The translations under genes were made by a program, and so were the position numbers. Of a stretch of DNA of 64,000 nucleotides, positions 1 to 12,957 are shown one piece after another. Each line of letters starts with the position of its first letter. The stretch's first letter is position 1. Origin of the DNA: Burkholderia contaminans (GTDB taxonomy: Bacteria; Pseudomonadota; Gammaproteobacteria; Burkholderiales; Burkholderiaceae); the NCBI RefSeq assembly GCF_029633825.1, contig NZ_CP090641.1:124001-188000 (forward strand). The letters are read 5' to 3'. The notes beneath the pieces are model-generated. The model did no database searches. It was not told the DNA's origin and was given only the letters and a program-made list of their open reading frames with translations.

Positions 1-727
1 GCGTTTCCTCGATCACTTTCTGGTTGCGGCGCTGCACCGAGCAATCGCGTTCGCCGAGTGCGATTGCATCCCCGCGGCCGTCGCCGAAGATCTGCACTTC
101 GATGTGCCGCGCGTGCTCGACGAATTTCTCGAGATACACGCCCGCATGCGCGAAGTTCGCGGCGCCGAGCCGCACGACGGAATCGAACGCCGCTTCGAGC
201 TGCGCGGCGTCGCGGCACAGGGACATGCCGATCCCGCCGCCGCCGGCGGTGCTTTTCAGCATCACCGGGTAGCCGATCGCGTCGGCTTCGGCGAGCGCCG
301 TCCGTGCATCGTCGAGCAGGCCCGTACCGGGCAGCAGCGCGACGCCCTGTGCAGCGGCGAGTTCGCGCGCGGTGTGCTTGAGCCCGAACGCGCGCATCTG
401 GTCGCCGCGCGGCCCGATGAAGCGCAGGCCCGCCGCTTCGCATGCGTCGGCGAATCCCGCGTGCTCGGACAGGAAGCCGTAGCCGGGATGCACGGCTTGC
501 GCGCCCGTCTCGCGTGCGGCGGCGAGGATCGCCGCGACGTTCAGGTAGCTGTCCGGCGCCGGCGCGGGGCCGACCCGCACGGCTTCGTCGGCGAGCGCCA
601 CGTGGCGCGCATCACGGTCGGCGTCGGAGTAGATCGCGACCGATGCGATTCCGAGCCGTTTCAGCGTGCGGATCACGCGGCACGCGATTTCGCCGCGGTT
701 CGCGACGAGGACTTTCGTGAATTTCAT
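1..727 (-). CDS. Urea/guanidine carboxylase, N-terminal part (runs off window)
   Basis: This is the first ~242 residues of a biotin-dependent carboxylase; the rest lies beyond the left edge. It opens with [20 protein letters not shown], the classic start of a biotin-carboxylase domain. It keeps the HPGYGFLSE motif, the glycine-rich ATP loop (GGGGIGMS) and the ERDCS..RRNQK segment near the edge. The family carboxylates urea or guanidine with ATP and bicarbonate in the cytoplasm. The ATG is set by a strong GGGAGG Shine-Dalgarno 5 bases upstream. It follows two DUF1989 genes on the same strand, the arrangement of 'urea carboxylase-associated' operons. The guanidine-I riboswitch at the operon head makes guanidine the likely true substrate (known for this family; inferred here). 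Without the C-terminal biotin domain, acetyl- or propionyl-CoA carboxylase cannot be excluded from this fragment alone, but the neighbours argue against them. Confidence 0.85.
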
Positions 728-854: not shown

Positions 855-1511
855 TCATTCCGCCTCCCAGATCGTGAGGCGCACCGGCGTCGGGTTGTAC
901 CCGTTGCACGGATTGTTGAGCTGCGGGCAGTTCGAGATCAGCACCGTGACGTCCATCTCCGCGCGCATCTCGACATACTTGCCCGGTGCGGAAATGCCGT
1001 CCTCGAACGTCAGCCCGCCGAGCGGCGTGACGGGCACGTTCATGAAGAAGTTGACGTTGCCGACCAGGTCGCGCTTGGTGAGCCGCGCACCCGCGCCGCA
1101 CGTGCAGTGCGTGATGGCGTTGAGGAAGCTGTCGCGGCAGTTGTGCATGTGCCGCTTGTCGAGCGCATAGCGCACGGTGTTGCTCTCGGCCGCGCACGCG
1201 CCGCCGAGCGTATCGTGACGGCCACAGGTATCGGCGACGATCGTCACCATCGGGTTGCCCCGGCTCGACAGCAGCACGCTGCCCGCGCTCAGGTACAGGT
1301 TGCGCTGCGCGCGGATGGTGTCCTGCGCGCTGTAGCGCTCCTCGGGGTCGTCGGACCGGTAGAACAGCGTGTCGACGGCCTGGTTGCCTTCGAGGTCGAG
1401 GATGCGGAAGACCTGCCCGCGCTTCAGGTCGTGCAGCCACGGTTCCCCCGCATTCAGCGTGGTGTCGTGAATGGCATCGCGCGGGTCGAGACGGCTTTCG
1501 ATGATCGGCAT
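855..1511 (-). CDS. DUF1989 protein, urea-carboxylase-associated type 2 (carboxyguanidine deiminase subunit)
   Basis: A 218-residue cytoplasmic protein of the DUF1989 family that accompanies urea/guanidine carboxylases. In guanidine-degrading bacteria two such proteins form the carboxyguanidine deiminase that yields allophanate (family knowledge). Visible features are [19 protein letters not shown] near residues 45-65, [11 protein letters not shown], and a Cys-rich centre ([14 protein letters not shown]). The motif [12 protein letters not shown] is shared with its neighbour. The centre could hold a metal. The start at ATG 1511 is backed by AAGGAGAG upstream. It lies 13 bp after the other DUF1989 gene and 127 bp before the carboxylase, so the three probably form one operon under the riboswitch at 2338-2462. 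Which subunit is CgdA and which CgdB cannot be decided from the sequence. Confidence 0.85.
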
Positions 1512-1524
1512 GGCTCGGCTCTCC

Positions 1525-2280
1525 TTACGCAAACAGGCGATCGGTGTTGGCGAAGCCGCGCACGTTCTCGGCGCACGCGCGGCGGCACGGATCGTCTTCC
1601 GGCGCGGCACCGTCCGCCGGATACGCGCGGTACGCGATCAGCTTCACGGCCTTCGGCGCGTAGTCCGGGTGCGGATCGAGCGGATGCGGCGCGGTCGAGA
1701 ACGCTGCCAGCGTGTTCATCTCGAAACGCAGGTCGAGGGCACTGCCGGCCGGCGAATGTCCGGCGACGAAATCGAGCGCGCCGTCGTCGCGGGTGTCGAG
1801 CTTGCTGAAGAAATTGACGTTCGCGACCAGGTCGCGCGCCGACAGCCCGTATTTCGCGAGTTCGAGCACGAGGCTGTCCCGGCCGTTGCGGATCATCGCG
1901 TTGCGATCGGCCTGGTACGACGTCGTGCCGTACTTGTGCGCGAACAGCCGCGCGTCGCCGACGCCGCCGAGCGGGTCGTGCCAGCCGAGCGTGTCGGCCG
2001 TGATCGACGCGATCACGCGCCCCATGTCGGTGTACAGCGCATGGCCGCGCGTGAGATGCGCGGTGTGCTGTGCCTTCAGCGTGTCGGCCATGTTGTAGCG
2101 TTCGAGCGGGTCTTCCTGGCGATGAAATACGGCGGACAGGTTCGCGCCGCCGTCGACATCGACGACGCGCAGCGCGAGGCCGCGGCGCAGGATGCCGGAC
2201 CAGTGGGTTCCGGCGGGAATGAGCGTTTCCCACACGACGTGTGGCGGCGGGGCAAGGACGGCTTGGGGGCTCGGCGACAT
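1525..2280 (-). CDS. DUF1989 protein, urea-carboxylase-associated type 1 (carboxyguanidine deiminase partner)
   Basis: A 251-residue paralogue of the following gene and the first gene of the operon. It shares the framework [31 protein letters not shown] and [13 protein letters not shown]. It lacks the central cysteines of its partner; its only Cys residues sit near the C-terminus ([11 protein letters not shown]). The two probably form a heteromer in which the Cys-rich subunit holds the active metal (inference). The ATG at 2280 follows a CGGAG Shine-Dalgarno and lies 58 bp after the end of the guanidine-I riboswitch. An in-frame extension upstream would run through the riboswitch and is rejected. 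Expression should rise with guanidine. Confidence 0.85.
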
Positions 2281-2337
2281 GGCGGCTCCGGGGTCGATTG
2301 GACAAAAGGCGTGAGAGGGCGACCGAACGACATCGCG

Positions 2338-2462
2338 ACCTCCCGGGCTTTTATCCCTCCGTGGAGCCTCGCCGTTTCCTCGAAGCGAGGAGAAGACAAG
2401 ACCGGATTGCTCTCGGACCAGCCATCGCGCGGCGCGAACGCCGCACGACCGGAACCCTAGCG
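2338..2462 (-). promoter_or_regulatory. Guanidine-I (ykkC) riboswitch, copy 1
   Basis: Reading the minus strand, three conserved blocks of the guanidine-I class are present in order and at normal spacing: CTAGGGTTCCGG (2460-2449), CTGGTCCGAGAGC (2421-2409) and GGGATAAAAGCCCGGGAG (ending at 2340). A variable arm with a GAGG..CCTC-type hairpin lies between blocks two and three. It heads the DUF1989-DUF1989-carboxylase operon. There is no clear T-rich terminator between aptamer and start codon, so control may act on translation or by a mechanism not visible here. Confidence 0.92.
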
Positions 2463-2907
2463 ATCCTGAAGATGATGCAAATTGCTTCGCACCTCTCGGG
2501 CACTGAATAAGCGAGTTGCGTGCCAGCGTGTGAGGAATCGCCGCGCCACGCGGCTTTCCGGCAAGCGCGCACTGACGGACACCGCACCGGATGCGGATGG
2601 CTGCCCTCACGGCGGGCGTGCCGCGCACCATGCGAACGCGCGCCCGCACCGGTGCAGTGCGCGCCGCGCCTGCCTGTACGACACGATCGGCAATGGCATG
2701 GGCATTGCTCGATGCATGCACCTTCACTCGATACGCGACACCTCATGAACAAGCTCGACCTGCTCCGGCGCGCGCTGAGCGCGCTCTTCTCCGCCCGCTT
2801 CATCGAACTGCAGCGCAGGTCGCGGCGCCACTGAGCCGCCCCGCCGCGCGCCGTTGGCACGCTTCTCGCTCGGCATGACGCCGAGAGGTGCGGCGGCATC
2901 GCATCTT
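2463..2907. other. Divergent promoter region between two riboswitches
   Basis: This 445-bp stretch has no credible gene; frames on both strands lack Shine-Dalgarno sites and family features. It must hold both promoters that drive the leftward carboxylase operon and the rightward binding-protein gene. I see no clear -35/-10 pair or operator. The segment at 2690-2730 (ATGGCATGGGCATTGCTCG...) has some repeat character only. Confidence 0.6.
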
Positions 2908-3025
2908 AGGGGTGCTAGGGTTCCGGTTCATCGAACGTCTGGTCCGAGAGCAGCCCGGTGCGGGTTCGTCCGATCGCGAGACCGGACGCACACGCGCTAC
3001 ACGGCGGGACAAAAGCCCGGGAGAT
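2908..3025 (+). promoter_or_regulatory. Guanidine-I (ykkC) riboswitch, copy 2
   Basis: The plus strand carries the same three blocks: CTAGGGTTCCGG (2915-2926), CTGGTCCGAGAGC (2939-2951) and GGGACAAAAGCCCGGGAG (3006-3023), with ACACGCGCTACACGG just before the last. This copy has shorter first and longer second arms than copy 1, so the two are not a recent duplication of identical sequence. It precedes the binding-protein gene at 3163 by 137 bp. That leader contains GC-rich inverted repeats (CGGCC around 3090-3105) that might form the expression platform. Confidence 0.92.
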
Positions 3026-3162
3026 TGGCGATGGCAACGGCCGTCGCGCCTCTCCGTGGCCGCTTCATTCGTTCCGCATCCGCAGGAACCGGCCACGCGG
3101 CCGGACCGCGCACGAGCACGGTCCGTATCGACGATCCCGATCCCGGTCTCCTGGAGAAAACG

Positions 3163-4185
3163 ATGACCCGCCCCGCCCTGGCGCCTGGCCGCCTGCTGTC
3201 CCGCCGTTCCGTCCGTCACGCATGGGGGGCCGCCGTTACGGCCGCCGCGCTACTCATGACACCCGCCGCGCACGCGGCAGCACCGCTCAAGATCGGCTAC
3301 AGCGACTGGCCCGGCTGGGTCGCGTTCCAGGTCGCACTCGACAAGGGATGGTTCAAGGAAGCCGGTGTCGATGTCGATTTCGAATGGTTCGATTACTCGG
3401 CATCGCTCGACGCGTTCTCCGCGGGCAAGCTCGACGCGGTCGCGGCGACGAATGGCGACGCGCTCGTCACGGGCTCGGCCGGCGCGAAGAACGTGATGGT
3501 CCTGCTCACCGACTATTCCGCCGGCAACGACATGATCGTCGCCAAGCCGCCGCTGCGCACCGTCGAGGCGCTGAAGGGCAAGAAGGTCGGCGTCGAACTC
3601 GGCCTCGTCGATCACCTGCTGCTCGAAACCGCGCTGCAGAAGCACGGGCTGAAGGACGGCGACGTGACGCTCGTGAACGCGAAAACCAACGAGCTGCCGC
3701 AGGTGCTCGGCTCGTCGTCGGACATCGCCGCGGTGGCCGCCTGGCAGCCGAACGCGGGCGAGGCGTTGAAGCGCGCACCGGGCGCACGCGCGATCTTCAC
3801 GTCGGCGGATGCGCCCGGGCTGATCTACGACGCGATCACGGTCGCGCCGGCCAGCCTTGCCGCGCGCCGCGCCGACTGGGCCAAGGTGATCAAGGTCTGG
3901 TACCGCTGCGTCGCCTACATCAACGATCCGAAGACGCAGGGTGACGCAGTCAAGATCATGTCCGCACGCGTCGGGCTTGCGCCGGAGCAGTACCTCCCGC
4001 TGCTGAAGGGCACGCACCTGCTCGACGAAGCCGCCGCAAAGCGCGCGTTCCGCAAGGGCGACGGACTCGATTCGATCTACGGCTCGACGCGCAACGCGAA
4101 TGCGTTCAACGTGCGCAACGGCGTGTACAAGCAGTCGCAGGACATCGACGCGTATATCGATCCGCGCCTGGTGATGCCGCATTGA
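3163..4185 (+). CDS. ABC transporter substrate-binding protein, riboswitch-controlled (guanidine/urea type)
   Basis: A 340-residue periplasmic binding protein of the nitrate/taurine/sulfonate (NMT1/SsuA-like) class. A signal peptide of ~40 residues ends at AHAAAPLKIGYSD. Typical features follow: WPGWVAFQVALDKGWFKEAG, DAFSAGKLDAVAATNGDALV and LKGKKVGVELGLVDH. The start at 3163 has CTGGAG upstream; an in-frame ATG at 3031 lacks a Shine-Dalgarno and would spoil the signal peptide. It is the only gene behind riboswitch copy 2, so guanidine or a guanidine compound is its likely ligand (inference). Such binding proteins normally sit with a permease and an ATPase. None follows here; a porin gene comes next after 240 bp. 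The partner subunits must be encoded elsewhere, perhaps beyond the left edge. Confidence 0.85.
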   Translation: MTRPALAPGRLLSRRSVRHAWGAAVTAAALLMTPAAHAAAPLKIGYSDWPGWVAFQVALDKGWFKEAGVDVDFEWFDYSASLDAFSAGKLDAVAATNGDALVTGSAGAKNVMVLLTDYSAGNDMIVAKPPLRTVEALKGKKVGVELGLVDHLLLETALQKHGLKDGDVTLVNAKTNELPQVLGSSSDIAAVAAWQPNAGEALKRAPGARAIFTSADAPGLIYDAITVAPASLAARRADWAKVIKVWYRCVAYINDPKTQGDAVKIMSARVGLAPEQYLPLLKGTHLLDEAAAKRAFRKGDGLDSIYGSTRNANAFNVRNGVYKQSQDIDAYIDPRLVMPH

Positions 4186-4429
4186 CGGACGCGGGGCCGG
4201 GCTTCGCGCGCCGGCCCCGCGCGCGCACTTCCCCCCACACCGAGGTTGCGTCAATCCGCACCCGCCGCCTGACCGTCTTCCCGCCCCCACCTCGCCGCGA
4301 CTCCACGCGATTCCACGCGATTTCGCAGAGGACCTTTCCTGTGCAGCGCCTTAATCGACTGCCACACGATCTCCAATAATGGCCGCTCGATCCGCCGGCC
4401 ACCGGGCCGGAAAAACGATAAAAACTCCT

Positions 4430-5641
4430 ATGCATTCCTACAAGATGAACCAGCACGCCGGGACTCGACTCGCGGGGACCGCCATTGCCACCTGCCTGAC
4501 CGCCCTCGCGTCGGGCGGTGTCCACGCACAGAGCAGCGTCACGCTGTACGGACTGATCGACACGTCGATCACTTACGCGACCAACCAGCGCACGCACGGC
4601 GCCGGCTCGCCGGGCAGCGGCACCGTCGCGATGACGAGCGGCGCACTGAACGCGTCGCGCTGGGGGCTGCGCGGCCGCGAGGATCTGGGCGGCGGGACCG
4701 CGGCGGTCTTCACGCTCGAGAACGGCTTCTCGGGCACCACCGGCGCACTGTCGCAGAAAGGCGTCGACCTGTTCGGCCGCCAGGCATGGATCGGCCTGAG
4801 CTCGAAGACGGCCGGCACGCTCACGTTCGGCCGCCAGTACGACCTGATCCTCGATTTCGTGACGCCGCTCGGCGCGTCCGGCCCCGGCTGGGGCGGCAAC
4901 CTCGCGGTGCATCCGTACGACAACGACGATTCGAACCGCAACCTTCGCATCAACCACGCGGTGAAGTACACGAGCCCGACGTACCGCGGGCTGACGTTCG
5001 GCGCGATGGTCGGGTTCTCGAACACGGCCGGCCAGTTCGCCAACAACGCGGCGTGGAGCGCGGGCGTGTCATATGCGAACGGACCGCTGAAGCTCGGCGC
5101 CGGTTACCTGAAGATCAGCCGTGACCGCAATGCGCCGAACCCGAATGGCGCGCTCAGCACGGTCGACGGCTCGGCGACGATCACCGGCGGCAACCAGCAG
5201 ATCTGGGCCGCGGCCGGCCGCTATGCATTCGGTCCGCATTCGGTCGGCGCCGCGTGGTCGCACTCGACCACCGACGGCGTGACCGGCGTGCTCCAGGGCG
5301 GCGGCATCGCGCCGCTGAAGGGTGAATCGCTGGTGTTCGACAATTTCACGATCGACGGGCGCTACGCCGTCACGCGTGCGTTGAGCCTTTCTGCCGCCTA
5401 CACGTACACGATGGGCCGCTTCGACACGCGCACCGGGCAAACGCGCCCGAAATGGAACCAGGTCGTGGCGCAAGCCGACTATGCGCTGTCGAAGCGCACC
5501 GATGCGTACCTCGAAGGCGTCTACCAGAGCGTGAGCGGCGGCAACGGCAATCCCGCGTTCAACGCGACCGTCTGGACGCTGACACCATCGGCGAACAGCA
5601 ACCAGGTCGTCGTCGCGCTGGGGCTGCGGCACAAGTTCTGA
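4430..5641 (+). CDS. OmpC-type general porin
   Basis: A trimeric outer-membrane porin of the Burkholderia Gram-negative porin family. The mature protein begins after a signal peptide ending GGVHAQ, with the hallmark SSVTLYGLIDTSITY. Other family marks are the ASRWGLRGREDLGGG motif, FGRQAWIGLSSKTAGTLTFGRQ, and a C-terminal beta strand ending in Phe (VVALGLRHKF), needed for BAM recognition. The length of 403 residues is normal. The start is uncertain: ATG 4430, 4445 and 4379 are all in frame, and none has a strong Shine-Dalgarno. It allows diffusion of small hydrophilic solutes. It lies 244 bp after the riboswitch-controlled binding protein on the same strand; co-transcription is possible but not shown. 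Confidence 0.93.
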   Translation: MHSYKMNQHAGTRLAGTAIATCLTALASGGVHAQSSVTLYGLIDTSITYATNQRTHGAGSPGSGTVAMTSGALNASRWGLRGREDLGGGTAAVFTLENGFSGTTGALSQKGVDLFGRQAWIGLSSKTAGTLTFGRQYDLILDFVTPLGASGPGWGGNLAVHPYDNDDSNRNLRINHAVKYTSPTYRGLTFGAMVGFSNTAGQFANNAAWSAGVSYANGPLKLGAGYLKISRDRNAPNPNGALSTVDGSATITGGNQQIWAAAGRYAFGPHSVGAAWSHSTTDGVTGVLQGGGIAPLKGESLVFDNFTIDGRYAVTRALSLSAAYTYTMGRFDTRTGQTRPKWNQVVAQADYALSKRTDAYLEGVYQSVSGGNGNPAFNATVWTLTPSANSNQVVVALGLRHKF

Positions 5642-6046
5642 CGATGCAATACGGAGCGGCGCAGCGCAAAACTGTTGCGCCGACCGTGTCGGGCAGGCGT
5701 TTCCAGCCCCGCTCGATCGTCATGCCCCGAGCCGGAATGGCCGCGCCCGCGCACGGCCTTTTCGCTGTGTCGTCGCCCCGCGCGACGACAAAAATGCGCC
5801 CCGGTCTGTCGCATCGGCGCAAAAAAATGCGGAGAAACTGGTCACGCTGTGACATTTTTCCTAATCTGTCTCCAGCGACGCCGCGATTTGGCGTTCCGGT
5901 CGCGACACTCTTTCATATGGCGCACCACCGGCTTACGAACATGATTCACGTCGTAAGTGCCGGCCTTTCGCGCCATTCCGGCCGGATACGGGCGTGCCGG
6001 TCGCACGCCCCACGCGTTCAACGCAGTCAACCGCTGGAGACGAACG
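5642..6046. other. Intergenic region with weak terminator-like hairpins
   Basis: There is no gene in these 405 bp. Two inverted repeats follow the porin: GCGCAA/TTGCGC (5664-5680) and GGCCG/CGGCC followed by TTTT (5739-5762). The second is the better candidate for a porin terminator. The A-rich stretch near 5820-5860 probably belongs to the promoter of the next gene. Confidence 0.4.
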
Positions 6047-6538
6047 ATGAGCAAAACGAACCGATTTGCGGTCCTCGCAACCTTCGTGCTGCTGGCCGGC
6101 TGCCACAATGCGGCGAAGACGCCCGAGAATGCCGGCACGGAGCCGACACCCTCGAGCGAAGCCGTCGCCACGGTGACGGCCGACGAGCTCAATGATCCGA
6201 ACAGCCCGCTCGCGAAGCGCAGCGTCTACTTCGATTTCGACCAGTACTCCGTCAAGCCCGAATACCAGTCGCTGCTGCAGGCGCACGCCGACTACCTGCG
6301 CAGCCATCCGTCGCGGCACGTGCTGATCCAGGGCAACACCGACGAACGCGGCACGTCCGAATACAACCTCGCGCTCGGCCAACGCCGCTCGCAAGCCGTG
6401 ATGAGCGGGCTCGAAACGCTCGGCGTGCAAGCCTCGCAACTCGAGGCGGTCAGCCTCGGCAAGGAAAAGCCGGTTGCGCTCGGCCACGACGAGGATTCGT
6501 GGGCGCAGAACCGCCGCGCCGATCTCGTCTATCGTTGA
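6047..6538 (+). CDS. Pal-like OmpA-domain lipoprotein
   Basis: A 163-residue lipoprotein. A lipobox, LLAGC, lies after a ~20-residue signal, so the mature N-terminus is a lipidated Cys. A short Pro/Thr linker leads to an OmpA/Pal peptidoglycan-binding domain: VYFDFDQYSVKPEYQSLLQAHADYLR, then QGNTDERGTSEYNLALGQRRSQAV and a C-terminal NRRADLVYR. These are the usual diaminopimelate contacts of Pal. The ATG at 6047 follows CTGGAG. The housekeeping pal gene normally lies in the tol operon. No tolB, tolA or cpoB gene is nearby, so this is probably a second Pal paralogue with a role in envelope anchoring or stress. Confidence 0.88.
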   Translation: MSKTNRFAVLATFVLLAGCHNAAKTPENAGTEPTPSSEAVATVTADELNDPNSPLAKRSVYFDFDQYSVKPEYQSLLQAHADYLRSHPSRHVLIQGNTDERGTSEYNLALGQRRSQAVMSGLETLGVQASQLEAVSLGKEKPVALGHDEDSWAQNRRADLVYR

Positions 6539-7150: not shown

Positions 7151-7359
7151 GTTCTTTGTAGTCGGAATCGGAATGGCGGCTGCCGGAGTGTATCAAGGCA
7201 CGGCAAGATGCCTCCGGTCTGCCCTTTCGCGTTCGACGATTCGCAAAAAAGCATGGAATAAACCGCCCGCCCGAAACGTTTCGTATTTCGTCAGCGCGCA
7301 GACGCACGGTTCGAGCGAACCGGCCTTTCCAGCGTCCCGCGTGCGGCAAGGAGGCGGAC

Positions 7360-7609: not shown

Positions 7610-8869
7610 TTAACGCATCGCCTTCACGTCGGCCGGCGTGACGCTCGCGGGCTGGCCGCCCCACGTCGCACGCAGGTAGTTCGCGAGCTGCGCGAGTTCG
7701 TCGTCGGTCAGCGTTTTCGCGAAACCCGGCATCCGCTGCAGGTTTTCGAAACCGGCGAACTTCTGCTCGTCGATGCCGTCGAGCATCGCGACCAGCAGGT
7801 TGCGCGAGTCGGCCTGACGCACCGTCGAATTGCCGTTCATCGGCACCGCCACGTGCGGCTTGCCTTCGCCGTTGAAGCCGTGACAACCGGCGCACACCGC
7901 GAGATAAACAGAGCGCCCGGCCGCCAGTTGCGCGGCATCGGCCGACACCGGCTTCACCGGTTGCGGCGCGGGCGGCGTATCGCCGAGCAGGTACGTCGAC
8001 AGGCCGCGCAGGTCGTCCTTCGTCAGATACTGCGTGCTCAAGTGCACGACCGGGTACATTTCGCCGAACGCCGAGCCTTGCGGCGCGATGCCGACGCCGA
8101 AGAACGTCTGCAGGTCGGCGCCCGTCCAGCCGCGCGCGGCGAGGCCGGCCGGCGTGATGTCGGGCGCGGCCACGCGGCCGAGCGCGGCGCCCGCGAACGG
8201 TTTCGCGCTGTCGAGCTGGCCCGTGAACGCGCGCGGCGTATGGCATTCCGCGCAGTGGCCGAGCGCACCCGCCAGATAGCGGCCGCGCTGCCAGTCGGCG
8301 GACTGGCCGGTCGACGCATCGGGCAGGCTGTCCTTCAGGAACACCATGTCCCAGAAGACCATCCCGAAACGCAGGTTGTACGGGAACTTCAGCTCGTGCT
8401 CGCGGTTTTCCTGCGCGACCGGCTTGACGGTCTTCAGGTACGCGTACATCGCGTCGGAATCGGCGCGCGTGAGCTGACGGTACGACGTGTACGGCATCGA
8501 CGGATACAGGCGCTTGCCCGGCGCCTTCCCGTCATGCAGCGCGGCGTAGAAATCGTCCGCGCTCCAGCTGCCGATCCCGTGATCCTTGTCGGGCGTGATG
8601 TTCGAGCCGTAGAACGTGCCGAACGGCGATTCGAGGGGCGCGCCGCCGGCGAACGGCGCGCCGTCCTTCGCGGTGTGGCACGCCGCGCAGTCGGCGGCCT
8701 TGACGAGATAGCGGCCGCGCGCGACCGGGTCGGCACCCGGCGCGCCGGAAGCCGCGTTCGAGGCCGGTGCGTCATGGCCGCCGCATGCGGCGAGCAGCAG
8801 CGCGCAGGCGACCGCGAGCGCGGGCAGGCCCGCAGCCCGCGCGACACGATGAGCGAGTGTGCGTTTCAT
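7610..8869 (-). CDS. Tri-heme cytochrome c subunit of a periplasmic molybdenum dehydrogenase
   Basis: A 419-residue exported cytochrome with three CxxCH heme sites: CAACH near residue 58, CAECH near 205 and CAGCH near 330. This matches the cytochrome subunit of membrane-bound aldehyde/gluconate/alcohol dehydrogenases. The signal is lipoprotein-like (LLLAACGGHD), so it may be tethered by a lipidated Cys. It is the last gene of a three-gene operon. Its ATG overlaps the stop of the 2Fe-2S gene by 4 bp (ATGA), implying coupled translation. It should pass electrons from the molybdenum enzyme to the respiratory chain (ubiquinone or a terminal oxidase). Confidence 0.9.
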   Translation of the reverse strand: MKRTLAHRVARAAGLPALAVACALLLAACGGHDAPASNAASGAPGADPVARGRYLVKAADCAACHTAKDGAPFAGGAPLESPFGTFYGSNITPDKDHGIGSWSADDFYAALHDGKAPGKRLYPSMPYTSYRQLTRADSDAMYAYLKTVKPVAQENREHELKFPYNLRFGMVFWDMVFLKDSLPDASTGQSADWQRGRYLAGALGHCAECHTPRAFTGQLDSAKPFAGAALGRVAAPDITPAGLAARGWTGADLQTFFGVGIAPQGSAFGEMYPVVHLSTQYLTKDDLRGLSTYLLGDTPPAPQPVKPVSADAAQLAAGRSVYLAVCAGCHGFNGEGKPHVAVPMNGNSTVRQADSRNLLVAMLDGIDEQKFAGFENLQRMPGFAKTLTDDELAQLANYLRATWGGQPASVTPADVKAMR

Positions 8870-9561
8870 GCGGAGTCCTTCACGAGTCCCGGCGTCGTCA
8901 AAATCACGTCCTTCACGGCTGCGTAGTAACGGACATAGCCCGTGCAGCGGCAAAGGTGCGCATCGAGCGCCTCGGTGATCGTGCGTTCGACGTCGGCCTT
9001 CGCGACCGGCTCGCGCTTCAGGCGTTCGATCAGCACGGTGGCCGCGTTGACGAAGCCCGGCGTGCAGTAGCCGCACTGGAAGCTGAAATGCTCGAGGAAC
9101 TTCTGCTGGATCGGCGACAGCTCGACCACTTCGCCCGCTTCGTTGCGCTTCGCGTGGCCTTCGATCGTGCGGATCGAACGGCCGTGGAAGAAGTGCGCGC
9201 CGGTGATGCAGGTGCGCATTTCCTCGCTCGTGCCGTCCGGCTTGTCGACGATCACGACGCACGCGTGGCAGATGCCCTGCCCGCAGCCGAGCCGCGAACC
9301 GGTGAGGCCTGCGTACTCGTGCAGGAACTCGATCATCATCAGCCCTTCCGGCACCTGCATCGGGCCGACGGACTTGCCGTTGATGTTCACCGACAACGGC
9401 TTCTGCTGGAACCGGACGAGCGGACGCTCGACGGCAGCCGGCGCCGATGCCTGCGCGGAAGGAACGGATGCCGGTGCGGCCGAAGCCGCGCTCGGCGCGG
9501 AAGCGCCGGTCGCAGCGGCGCTGGCGCTCGCGGCCGAAGCCGCGGTTTGGGCGGTCGTCAT
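8866..9561 (-). CDS. 2Fe-2S subunit of xanthine dehydrogenase-family enzyme
   Basis: A 231-residue iron-sulfur subunit. After an unusual Ala/Ser/Thr-rich N-terminal extension of ~70 residues comes a plant-type ferredoxin domain (VNINGKSVGPM; CGQGICHACVV; CITGAHFF). A second 2Fe-2S domain follows with CGYCTPG and CRCTGY. All eight ligands are present. There is no signal peptide or twin Arg, so export would depend on hitch-hiking with the Tat-targeted large subunit. The low-complexity extension is not typical of the family and may be a flexible tether. Its ATG overlaps the stop of the large-subunit gene by 4 bp and its stop overlaps the cytochrome start, so translation is coupled on both sides. 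Confidence 0.92.
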   Translation of the reverse strand: MTTAQTAASAASASAAATGASAPSAASAAPASVPSAQASAPAAVERPLVRFQQKPLSVNINGKSVGPMQVPEGLMMIEFLHEYAGLTGSRLGCGQGICHACVVIVDKPDGTSEEMRTCITGAHFFHGRSIRTIEGHAKRNEAGEVVELSPIQQKFLEHFSFQCGYCTPGFVNAATVLIERLKREPVAKADVERTITEALDAHLCRCTGYVRYYAAVKDVILTTPGLVKDSA

Positions 9562-12434
9562 GCGAGCACCTCCTGAATCTTTTGCGGGGTCACCGGCAGG
9601 TCGGTGAAACGATGGCCGATCGCGTGCGCGATGCCGTTCACGATCGCGCCGACGACGGGGATCATCACCACTTCGGCGACGCCCTTCGGCGGATCGGTCT
9701 CGGACAGCGGCGGCAGCACGTCGCCCGTCTGCGTCCAGACAGCGACGTCGGACGCGCGCGGCAGCTGGTAACGGTTGAAGTTCCACGTGCCGTTGCCAGG
9801 GCCGTCTTCATACAGCGGCAGATACTCGTGCAGCGCGTGGCCGATACCCATCGCGAGACCGCCCTGCAACTGCCCCGACACGAGCTGCGGCGAAATCTGG
9901 TTGCCGCACTCCATGATCGAATGGTGCGTGAGCAGCTCGACCTTGCCGGTCGCTTCGTGCACGGCCAGCTCGACGAGCGTGCCGACTGCCGTGTAGTACG
10001 TGACGGCCGCGTTGTTGCGGCTCGTCGGCGGGATGAACACGCGCTTGCGGTCCAGCACGCGGTAGCCGTTCGCGGTCGGCGCCAGCGTGCCGCGCATCGC
10101 GGTGGCGCCGGCCGGTGCGGCCGTGCCGGGCACCGGGCCGTTGTCGCCCGTCTTCGGCGCGCCGACGCGCAGCGACAGCCCGTCGATCGGCAGGCGCTCG
10201 ACCGTGCCGCCCACTTCGAACTCGGCGTCGGTCCACTGCCAGCGGTTGAACACGTGCACGACGGCGCCGGTCGGCAGGCCCAGCGCATGCGCCTGCTTCG
10301 CGAGCTGTTCGAAGCTCAGCGGCTCGAGGCCGTCGGCGGTCAGCTTGCCGTCGACCCAGCGCGCGTCCTCGATGCGGATCGCATACGGCGCGGCCTGGCC
10401 GCCGCCGAGGCCGCGCGTCCAGATCGACATCGCGGCCGGCCACAGGCCGTAGCGGAACACGGCGCGCGCGGCTTCGCGCGTGCTGTGCGTGAAGTAGTAC
10501 GCGGAGTTCGTCGCGCTCGACGGCGACGCATAGCTCGGCGACCAGCGCGGGTTCGCGCTCAGGCGATCCTGGTCGGCCTGCGACATGACGTACGGATCGC
10601 CGCTGGTCTCGACCGGCAGGTCCGGCCATTCGGTCACGGCCACGCGCACGTCCGTTGCCGGACGACCCAGCCATTTCGCGACCGCGACCGCCTGCGACGT
10701 CGACATCCCGGTGCCGATCTCGGCCGCCGTGTGCTGCAGCGACACCTTGCCGTTCTCGTCGAATTCGACCTTCGCGAACGACGCTTCCGCGCCCGTGCCG
10801 AAGTCCTTCTGCACGCACGCGAAGCCGACGCCGTAGCGCTTGCCCGGGTTCGCGGCCTCGTATTCGGCCTTGCGCGCCGCGCGGCGCGTCCACAGGGGAT
10901 GCTGCTTCGAGCGCTCGAGCACCTCGTCGACGCGCAGCGCGCCGGCGGGAATCGCCCCCTGCGTGTTCTTCATCCCCGAACGCAGTGCGTTGCGCAGGCG
11001 GAAATCGATCGGGTCGATGTTCAGCTGCGCGGCGATCTCGTCGACCGCCATCTCGGTCGCCGCCATGCTCTGCAGCGTGCCGTAGCCGCGCGCGGAACCG
11101 GCATCGATCGCGCGCGACGCGATCGCGACCGCGGCCAGGTCGCTCTTCGGGAAGTAGTAGATCGATTGCGCGGCCGTCGCCCCCACCATCGCCACCGACG
11201 GCGAGAAGTTCGAGCGCCCGCCGCCGTTCGCCTCGAAGTCACCCTTGAACGACTGCAGCAGGCCCGTGTTGCGGTCCACCGCGATCCGGTAGTGCATCTT
11301 GAACGCGTGACGCTTCAGCGACGTCTGGAACTGCTCGTAGCGGTCGTTCGCGAAACGCACCGGGCGGCCGTCCGCGTACAGCGCGCAGACGAGACCGTAG
11401 AACGGCACGTTGAAGTGATCCTTGGAGCCGTAGCCGACCGTGTAGCACGGATGCACGAACAGCTTCTTCACCGGGAAGCGGCACTTCGCGACCATCGCGG
11501 CCGCGTTCTCGGCCACTTCGAGCGGCGACTGGGTCGGCACGACGAGGTGCAGCGACTGCGTCGCGGCGTCGTACCAGCAGTTCGCGTTGTCCGGCTCGAG
11601 CGCGGACGTATCGACCGACTGCGTGTTGTACTCGCGGTCGAACACGAGCCAGTCTGCCGACGGATGGTCGAGCTCGCTGGCGATCTGCCCGGCGAGGAAC
11701 ATGCCCTGCTCGTCGAGCTTGCCGTGCTCCTTGCCGTCCGGCCACACCGGCAGGTGCTTGCGCATCATGCTCGGGAAGATCGGCGCGTCCTTCAGGCTCG
11801 AATAGACGTCGTCGTCATAGGCCGTCTTGCCGCCCACGCGCACGTAGCGGAAGGTGCCCCACGGATCGCGCTCGAGCGGGCCCGTGACCGCGCCGTAGCG
11901 GATCACGTCGTCGCGGAACTTGAGCGCGTTCTTCGCGAAGCGAAAGCGCGCGAAGTCGTGATAGATGAGGATCGCGACCGCATGGCCGAGATACGCGGGC
12001 GTCTTGCCGGCCGGCAGCAGCATGTCGTCGCCGTAGAACGTCGGGAACGCGACGCCGTCGCGCACGAGATCGTCGGCCGTGACCACGCGGTCCGGCTTCA
12101 GGTCGTCGCCGAGCAGCGACAGGTCGAAGCCCTCGTAGATCCGGTCGGCCTGCGTGACGCGCAGGATCAGCGCATGCGACTGCTGCTGCGGCCAGTGCGG
12201 CATGTCGGCGGCGCGCACGTCACGGGCGAACACTTTCGAGCCCGTGACCTTCGCGATGCCGTCGATGCGGAATTGGGGGATGCCGGTGACGCTATCCCAT
12301 TTGACGGGGGTGAGGAGTTTTTCTTCGAAGAGCGCCGCGAATGCGCGGCTGCCCAGGGGCGCGACATACACCGCGACGCCCGCCAGCACGCTGGCTTTCA
12401 GAAAACCCCGCCGTGACAGGCCGTGGTTTTTCAT
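9558..12434 (-). CDS. Molybdopterin-binding large subunit, xanthine dehydrogenase family (periplasmic aldehyde dehydrogenase type)
   Basis: A 958-residue large subunit with a Tat signal (SRRGFLKASVLAGVAVYVAP), so the folded enzyme is exported. It keeps the domain order of the periplasmic xanthine-dehydrogenase-like group: an early FRIDGIAKVTGSKVFARDV segment, SARGYGTLQSMAATEMAVDEIA, GVGFACVQKDFGTGAEASFA, AAEIGTGMSTSQAVAVAKWL, and a C-terminal QISPQLVSGQLQGGLAMGIG with the expected Gly and Gln contacts to the cofactor. The substrate cannot be told from sequence; aldehydes or N-heterocycles are the usual ones. It heads an operon with the 2Fe-2S and cytochrome genes. No maturation factor (XdhC, MobA) is seen nearby. 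The ATG at 12434 is chosen because it gives the complete Tat signal. Confidence 0.92.
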   Translation of the reverse strand: MKNHGLSRRGFLKASVLAGVAVYVAPLGSRAFAALFEEKLLTPVKWDSVTGIPQFRIDGIAKVTGSKVFARDVRAADMPHWPQQQSHALILRVTQADRIYEGFDLSLLGDDLKPDRVVTADDLVRDGVAFPTFYGDDMLLPAGKTPAYLGHAVAILIYHDFARFRFAKNALKFRDDVIRYGAVTGPLERDPWGTFRYVRVGGKTAYDDDVYSSLKDAPIFPSMMRKHLPVWPDGKEHGKLDEQGMFLAGQIASELDHPSADWLVFDREYNTQSVDTSALEPDNANCWYDAATQSLHLVVPTQSPLEVAENAAAMVAKCRFPVKKLFVHPCYTVGYGSKDHFNVPFYGLVCALYADGRPVRFANDRYEQFQTSLKRHAFKMHYRIAVDRNTGLLQSFKGDFEANGGGRSNFSPSVAMVGATAAQSIYYFPKSDLAAVAIASRAIDAGSARGYGTLQSMAATEMAVDEIAAQLNIDPIDFRLRNALRSGMKNTQGAIPAGALRVDEVLERSKQHPLWTRRAARKAEYEAANPGKRYGVGFACVQKDFGTGAEASFAKVEFDENGKVSLQHTAAEIGTGMSTSQAVAVAKWLGRPATDVRVAVTEWPDLPVETSGDPYVMSQADQDRLSANPRWSPSYASPSSATNSAYYFTHSTREAARAVFRYGLWPAAMSIWTRGLGGGQAAPYAIRIEDARWVDGKLTADGLEPLSFEQLAKQAHALGLPTGAVVHVFNRWQWTDAEFEVGGTVERLPIDGLSLRVGAPKTGDNGPVPGTAAPAGATAMRGTLAPTANGYRVLDRKRVFIPPTSRNNAAVTYYTAVGTLVELAVHEATGKVELLTHHSIMECGNQISPQLVSGQLQGGLAMGIGHALHEYLPLYEDGPGNGTWNFNRYQLPRASDVAVWTQTGDVLPPLSETDPPKGVAEVVMIPVVGAIVNGIAHAIGHRFTDLPVTPQKIQEVLA

Positions 12435-12957
12435 TGGGGGGGAACCTCCTGATGCGGCTCGGACGGCGATCGGGTGTCGCGACGTTCGGAGCGGCGCGCA
12501 TTCTGGCATTGTTTTTGATATATCGCCTATAGTATTTCTCGCATGAAATACTTATTGAATTTCTTATAACGGTATTCAGCCGGCCTGCGACAGCCGGTCG
12601 CGGGTGTCGCTTCGACCGCGTCGCGTGCCCGTCTGCAGCAGTTTCGATCGTGTCGACCGAGCCCGCTCTGTGCTCGGTGACCGGTCTTCCGCCGGCCCCC
12701 GAGCCGCATTCCGTTCGCGACGATGCTGCCCCAGGCGCCGGCGAATACGCAAGCCATTCGCGGGCGTGATTGACGACGAGCGGCCGGCGCGGCGAGCGCC
12801 GCCGCGGGCCCCTCCGGGCATCCACGCGGGCACCCCGCGCCGCCCGTGTTTCATGGTAATGTCGTGCGCATCCGGCGTGGCCGGGCTTCCGCCATGTGCC
12901 GTGCGGTCGCCGCCAGCCATCGCGACATCACGCGACATCGTGTCGAGGTCAAAAACC
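12435..12957. other. Divergent intergenic region with AT-rich core
   Basis: A 523-bp region between the molybdenum-enzyme operon and the GGDEF gene. An AT-rich patch at 12507-12572 (TTTTTGATATATCGCCTATAG... and TTGAATTTCTTATAACGG) stands out and is the likely promoter area for the leftward operon. The remaining GC-rich 380 bp, including the frame running into the GGDEF gene from 12604, shows no protein family and no ribosome site. Confidence 0.5.

Follow-up and report, generated by a model that had tools for sequence, protein, structure and literature searches.

Guanidine-I riboswitches (RF00442; ykkC subtype 1) are usually transcriptional ON switches, and the meaning of guanidine to bacteria is described as an unsettled matter (PMC12186494). 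In the riboswitches of ykkC subtype 2, which respond to PRPP or ppGpp, the ends of the PRPP aptamer form a helix, P0, that is involved in the expression platform; this region is absent in guanidine-I, for which an adenosine, not a pyrimidine, at A46 serves as subtype marker (PMC6031431). Combinations of two guanidine riboswitches have been described in Raoultella and Klebsiella, where a guanidine-I and a guanidine-II RNA share importer, deaminase, carboxylase and hydrolase genes between them (PMC12186494), and in Herbaspirillum seropedicae, where two RF00442 leaders, Hsnc110 and Hsnc116, lie upstream of the neighbouring genes HSERO_RS22365 and RS22370 (PMC7011215); promoter type, orientation and expression platform go unmentioned in the accessible text of the latter report. 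A further relevant system is the NtrC/sigma54 regulon of Burkholderia cenocepacia H111, in which genes that are almost surely orthologues of those at the present locus depend on NtrC and were placed under urea use (PMC5491218).

Here we describe a pair of Guanidine-I aptamers in a 64,000-nucleotide stretch of Burkholderia contaminans DNA, termed the window. As in known members of RF00442, both copies exceed the curated cut-off and accompany a guanidine-assimilation gene set; the locus differs from these in its divergent pairing, in its predicted sigma54 promoters and in a predicted long-range helix formed with the 5' end of each leader. Whereas the Raoultella and Klebsiella operons combine two riboswitch classes, one unit lying directly downstream of the other (PMC12186494), a single class is used here, in divergent orientation.

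Results

The aptamer pair and the genes on its two arms

A cmscan search of both strands of the window, run at gathering thresholds, returned two significant RF00442 matches, one per strand and each above the gathering score of 63 (Table 1), and no match to any other family. A sequence-only reading had proposed two ykkC-type aptamers in opposite orientation, heading a leftward DUF1989/DUF1989/carboxylase operon and a rightward binding-protein gene; the search result and the gene models agree with it on each of these points. Both aptamers are full length (model positions 1-107) and divergent, separated by 432 bp (2472-2903) rather than the 452 bp originally proposed. The arms do differ in length, as had been noted, the left aptamer having 134 nt and the right 122 nt, a difference that stems from variable hairpins. 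In the covariance-model alignment, the block that may correspond to the subtype marker A46 reads GGUCCGAGAG in both aptamers. By family membership both are Guanidine-I riboswitches, with a response to guanidine predicted for each; a whole-genome search that scored 150 of its 177 first-look candidates revealed no third Guanidine-I copy.

Table 1. Positions of predicted features around the riboswitch pair (window coordinates).
Feature	Positions	Strand	Basis or remark
Urea-carboxylase-family gene, 5' part	1..727	-	TIGR02712 over cut-off; runs on left of window
DUF1989 protein UAAP2	855..1511	-	TIGR03424 over cut-off
DUF1989 protein UAAP1	1525..2280	-	TIGR03425 over cut-off
Left arm, terminator-like hairpin (2344-2313) and imperfect U-tract CGCCTTTTG (2311-2303)	2303..2344	-	Fold
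Left arm, 3' strand of long-range helix	2313..2322	-	Duplex prediction
Guanidine-I aptamer, left arm	2338..2471	-	RF00442, 74.2 bits, E 2.5e-11 (cmscan, whole window)
Left arm, 5' strand of long-range helix	2487..2497	-	Pairs with 2322-2313; ten pairs, one bulged U, duplex -15.4 kcal/mol
Sigma54 -24/-12 box, left arm, TGGCACGCAACTCGCT	2510..2525	-	TGGCA-N7-NGC in 32/32 genus loci
Weaker NtrC-like site	2602..2618	.	8/12; 22 bp from 2624..2640, 43 bp from 2645..2661; shuffles usually reach 8
Weaker NtrC-like site	2624..2640	.	8/12; 21 bp from 2645..2661; shuffles usually reach 8
NtrC-like site CGCACCGGTGCAGTGCG	2645..2661	.	10/12 consensus positions
Third sigma54-type box, TGGCATGGGCATTGCT, upstream of small ORF	2694..2709	+	32/32 genus loci
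Conserved 29-residue ORF (RFIELQ motif)	2745..2834	+	30 sequences compared
Sigma54 -24/-12 box, right arm, TGGCACGCTTCTCGCT	2855..2870	+	32/32 genus loci
Right arm, 5' strand of long-range helix (predicted +3 to +17)	2883..2897	+	Pairs with 3040-3054; 15 contiguous base pairs, duplex -31.0 kcal/mol
Guanidine-I aptamer, right arm	2904..3025	+	RF00442, 76.3 bits, E 8.2e-12 (cmscan, whole window)
Right arm, alternative hairpin using aptamer GGGAG tail	3019..3055	+	Minimum-energy fold
Right arm, 3' strand of long-range helix	3040..3054	+	Alternatively in hairpin 3019-3055
ABC substrate-binding protein, urea-carboxylase-associated kind	3163..4185	+	TIGR03427 best NCBIfam; Pfam NMT1

The enzyme operon runs on past the left edge of the window, from the carboxylase to an allophanate hydrolase, scoring over its model cut-off, and then to an ABC permease and an ABC ATPase, both assigned by best matches below the cut-offs of the models. 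The binding protein of the right arm likewise falls below the cut-off of its best model (TIGR03427, 141.7 bits against 333.9). A longer form of this protein, starting at an in-frame ATG at 3031, was set aside, as the ATG at 3163 is preceded by GGAG and opens a signal-peptide-like start. Residue 701 of the carboxylase is D and aligns with 737 N of the Kluyveromyces lactis urea carboxylase chain 3va7, in a column that we take to be the marker position (Asn1330). Replacement of the urea carboxylase Asn by Asp is the mark of guanidine carboxylases (PMC12186494). The guanidine-related genes downstream of the aptamers comprise a carboxylase with Asp, the DUF1989 pair, the allophanate hydrolase and parts of an ABC importer. 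As judged from these assignments the importer is split, with permease and ATPase on the left and the binding protein alone on the right, so that a working importer would need both arms.

Distribution of the pair

RF00442 was found in 32 of 65 genomes of the genus Burkholderia, with two matches in each of the 32, and at all 32 loci the aptamers point away from each other, one towards the binding-protein gene and one towards DUF1989. The genomes carrying a DUF1989 gene (32/65) are the same 32, indicating that pair and genes travel together. When the 3 kb upstream of each named relative of the binding protein was inspected (71 loci, mainly from Burkholderia, Paraburkholderia and Trinickia), a divergent pair was present at 22, represented by 19 records named Burkholderia, two Trinickia and one Herbaspirillum MAG. 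Guanidine-I RNAs occurred in 113 of 398 sampled genomes of the family, 51 of 399 of the order and 29 of 369 of the class. Many of the family loci inspected carry one riboswitch, placed ahead of an operon for binding protein, permease and ATPase, and at some the two riboswitch units lie far apart; the earlier assertion that a single riboswitch is usual is thus apt for many genomes of the family but not for the 65 genomes of the genus, where every one that carries DUF1989 has the pair. Divergent pairs recur in other families, and those outside the genus include loci L067, L068, L069, L203 and L241 to L247. Among these, L244, from another family, has a carboxylase-family gene on each side and no sigma54 boxes. 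At three loci of another genus (L070, L071 and L072) about 3 kb lies between the two divergent riboswitches. Adjacent ykkC leaders of H. seropedicae are already in print (PMC7011215), so that the pairing by itself has a precedent.

Sigma54-type promoters upstream of Guanidine-I aptamers

Both aptamers follow predicted sigma54-dependent promoters, whose TGGCA-N7-NGC boxes are kept at all 32 genus loci (Table 1). The left-arm box stands at an almost constant distance from the left aptamer in all 32 loci, and the right-arm box is located 86 nt ahead of GGTCCGAGAG in 30 of the 32, with distances of 87 and 93 in the remaining two. The region between the divergent aptamers had been envisaged as one promoter region; this picture is oversimplified, since the region contains three sigma54-type boxes with NtrC-like sites among them. 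Sigma70 promoters were rejected as drivers, none being found by a pattern scan of positions 2200-3200.

We extended the comparison to 194 aptamers found by a text pattern at 146 loci, reduced to 109 non-redundant leaders; 14 loci whose aptamer was missed by the pattern were dropped, and possible false matches among the 194 (e.g. L043 + and L139 +) were retained and counted as misses. The 130 nt upstream of each aptamer were scored over 12 positions for a GG-N10-GC box with hexamers like TGGCAC and TTGC. Scores of at least 10/12 were reached by 100 of the 109 leaders (2.7% of dinucleotide shuffles), at least 11/12 by 82 (0.30%) and 12/12 by 39 (0.01%), leaving nine Guanidine-I leaders below 10. 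By the same scoring, a value of 10 was reached at one of 28 TPP riboswitches of the order (two of 30 loci, too short at a contig end, were left out) and at none of 30 glycine riboswitches of relatives.

Candidate activator sites were scored against an NtrC-type consensus. In the stretch bounded by the two divergent boxes, five places score at least 8, the best being 2645-2661; since shuffles usually attain a best score of 8, only this site is more than suggestive. In the wider set, 43 of 99 upstream regions score at least 10/12, compared with 4.3% of shuffles. These NtrC-like sites constitute weaker evidence than the sigma54 promoters. The near-constant association of Guanidine-I aptamers with sigma54 promoters appears, as far as could be seen, to be new: no link between guanidine riboswitches and sigma54 or NtrC was found among the papers listed by literature searches, which reached few subscription-journal papers.

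A predicted long-range helix between the transcript 5' end and the region past the aptamer

Both leaders begin near the predicted sigma54 +1 with CGAGAGGUGCG and contain CCUCUC some 20-30 nt past the aptamer, and long-range pairing is predicted on each arm (Table 1). Unlike P0, the predicted helix does not join the aptamer's own ends, its strands being set off by 6-15 nt on the 5' side and by 14-15 nt on the 3' side from an aptamer that matches the guanidine family. In other lineages the letters change and the match stays, as in GGAGC/GCUCC, CACGGGA/UCCCGUG and GCAGGGAAGC/GCUUCCCUGC.

The 100 leaders with a sigma54 box were long enough in 94 cases for permutation, 95 for a simple helix finder, 79 for tests of local hairpins and short 5' ends, and 99 for the NtrC scan. 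Over the 94 leaders, pairing of the 5' end with its own downstream segment averaged -28.0, against -23.8 (sd 0.39) for permuted segments, a value equalled in 0 of 5000 permutations. Single-linkage clustering, which placed 91 of the 94 leaders in one cluster, was replaced by sets of mutually dissimilar leaders; permutation over its four clusters was not significant (245, 74 and 257 of 2000 at or below the own value). For such sets, drawn five times with 23-26 leaders apiece, own values were -20.8 to -22.0 and permuted values -16.6 to -17.2 kcal/mol, with 0 of 5000 permutations in each draw, and the own segment was the best partner in six to eight leaders per draw. When only +1 to +14 was used (15 or 16 leaders), the counts were 17, 1 and 0 of 3000. 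Corresponding controls gave 488 of 2000 for DNA upstream of the promoter, 47 of 2000 for the last nucleotides ahead of the aptamer, and 963, 1970 and 822 of 3000 for a spacer segment. In 46 of 91 leaders the first nucleotide of the 5' strand falls within +1 to +4, compared with 22% of swapped pairs, and at least nine contiguous pairs form in 38 of 95 own combinations against 16% of swapped ones, chance complementarity being high in these GC-rich leaders. The complementarity between 5' end and downstream segment is kept through sequence change, that is, it covaries.

The downstream strand can alternatively pair with the GGGAG tail of the aptamer, which yields the stabler fold in ligand-free prediction: with the long-range helix forced, the right leader scores -86.4 against a minimum of -91.3, and the left leader -83.5 against -95.1. 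The two alternative partners of this strand overlap by at least 3 nt in 42 of 91 leaders by the helix finder, so that mutual exclusion is clear in less than half of them. Comparison of tail pairing with own and swapped segments (16.3 and 16.1) is uninformative, the tail being nearly invariant. The 5' strand can also fold into a local hairpin, a competitor of the long-range helix; as the conserved element this hairpin was discarded, being the weaker of the two, with z values of -0.5, -1.3 and -2.3 against -2.8, -3.4 and -5.1 for the long-range helix.

A canonical intrinsic terminator is not a requirement of this aptamer family. Pattern scanning of positions 2200-3200 returned no terminator-like site, and a simple U-tract terminator was rejected accordingly; hairpins with imperfect tails are present, including that of the left arm (Table 1), which the scan did not recognise. 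Since a clear U-tract is missing in the right arm and in many single-operon leaders, the stop step could be brought about by Rho or at translation. We read the long-range helix as a putative antiterminator, or at least anti-sequestering, element, and as far as could be seen such a 5'-end helix in Guanidine-I leaders is new.

A conserved small ORF between the riboswitches

The third sigma54-type box precedes an ORF with the sequence MNKLDLLRRALSALFSARFIELQ-, box and ORF together spanning 2694-2834 (+). Among 30 sequences, 74% of single-base codon differences are synonymous in this frame, compared with 20% and 14% in the other frames. The 29-residue protein had no NCBIfam match, and no clear Shine-Dalgarno sequence was seen before the ORF. 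Forms with the RFIELQ motif also occur, divergent to a DUF1989 gene, at L070, L071, L072, L074 and L084; a sigma54-type box lies upstream of the ORF at four of these loci, none being found at L071.

Correspondence with published nitrogen-starvation data

A published RNA-seq study of nitrogen-limited B. cenocepacia H111 reported zero reads in the ntrC mutant for I35_7283 ("urea carboxylase-related ABC transporter, periplasmic protein") and I35_7285 ("urea carboxylase-related aminomethyltransferase"), and a log2 change of -6.0 for I35_7286 ("urea carboxylase"); 95% of its top 150 genes were sigma54-regulated as well (PMC5491218). By names, by order and by the single carboxylase, I35_7283 to I35_7286 are almost surely orthologues of both arms; in the B. 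cenocepacia genome of our set (G007), the only carboxylase over the model cut-off is located at this locus. The accessible text of the study classes 7283-7286 as urea genes and contains neither the word guanidine nor the word riboswitch (PMC5491218). For these presumed orthologues we suggest that the published filing needs correction.

Discussion

We think it likely that the locus operates as a two-input, two-armed guanidine switch, in which nitrogen limitation starts transcription and guanidine lets elongation continue. Under nitrogen limitation, sigma54 polymerase at both divergent promoters would be activated by NtrC sitting between the arms, a step suggested by the boxes and sites found here together with the published dependence in B. 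cenocepacia (PMC5491218). Each transcript would start with a Guanidine-I riboswitch. In the absence of guanidine, the GGGAG tail of the aptamer would pair with the downstream CCUCUC-type segment and elongation or expression would halt; guanidine, when present, would close the aptamer, and the transcript's 5' end would then capture the same downstream segment, blocking the stop hairpin. This switching step is proposed on the basis of the covarying complementarity, and its ON direction follows the usual behaviour of the class as published (PMC12186494). The left arm would then supply the carboxylase, the DUF1989 proteins, allophanate hydrolase, permease and ATPase, and the right arm the binding protein. 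Guanidine use may in this way be confined to conditions in which the compound is available and the cell needs it. The published data imply expression in the nitrogen-limited wild type, with guanidine unmentioned in the accessible text (PMC5491218); this counts against a tight gate, which may therefore be leaky or be satisfied by endogenous guanidine.

The same observations could be viewed more conventionally, as an ordinary pair of Guanidine-I riboswitches, each acting alone on transcription or translation behind the usual sigma54 promoters of nitrogen-scavenging genes, the complementarity having no regulatory role. The class is indeed usually a transcriptional ON switch (PMC12186494), and NtrC control is widespread among the nitrogen genes of B. 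cenocepacia (PMC5491218); we nonetheless find this account rather unlikely, as a complementarity that survives large sequence change and starts at +1 to +4 about twice as often as in swapped pairs would require a selective reason. That reason could lie elsewhere than in antitermination, for instance in protection of the 5' end, in a target for an sRNA or protein, or in Rho access. The lack of a terminator by pattern, the capacity of the 5' strand to make a local hairpin, and the limited number of leaders in which the alternative partners clearly overlap all favour such a role, but at the locus in the window the helix uses as its 3' side the very segment with which the aptamer tail would otherwise pair, and we judge such a role unlikely. 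Least probable is the separate tuning suggested by the sequence-only reading, in which unequal affinity or unlike leaders of the two aptamers would make uptake and breakdown answer to different guanidine concentrations: the helix of the right arm is contiguous and that of the left shorter and bulged, and hairpin strengths differ, yet with enzymes, permease and ATPase together on the leftward operon at most the amount of binding protein could be tuned, and separate control of uptake and breakdown does not fit.

Extending the two-input switch beyond this locus, we propose tentatively, with somewhat more doubt than conviction, that attachment to a sigma54 promoter is the rule for Guanidine-I riboswitches in beta- and gamma-proteobacteria, the start site supplying an antiterminator strand that acts across the aptamer. 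Promoter and riboswitch would then form one evolved AND-gate unit, of which the divergent pair holds two copies; these would have an enhancer in common, and a third sigma54 transcript would encode a new small protein. The near-constant link to a promoter of the nitrogen-starvation type argues that in these bacteria the class marks guanidine as a food, not a poison, and makes the two-input gate directly testable. It is also suggested that part of the expression platform lies upstream of the aptamer, outside the view of aptamer-only models.

Neighbouring genes and a Guanidine-II riboswitch of the same genome

Downstream of the binding-protein gene are genes for a porin (4379-5641, +) and an OmpA-family protein (5990-6538, +). 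Further along, 7610-12509 (-) encodes a set which, judged by its translations, resembles a cytochrome c, a 2Fe-2S subunit and a molybdopterin-binding oxidoreductase of the isoquinoline-oxidoreductase kind. Elsewhere in the genome a single Guanidine-II riboswitch (L240; C1:69040-69084, -) adjoins an ORF on the same strand that by eye is SMR-exporter-like; guanidine efflux thus seems to be served by a unit of its own in this genome.
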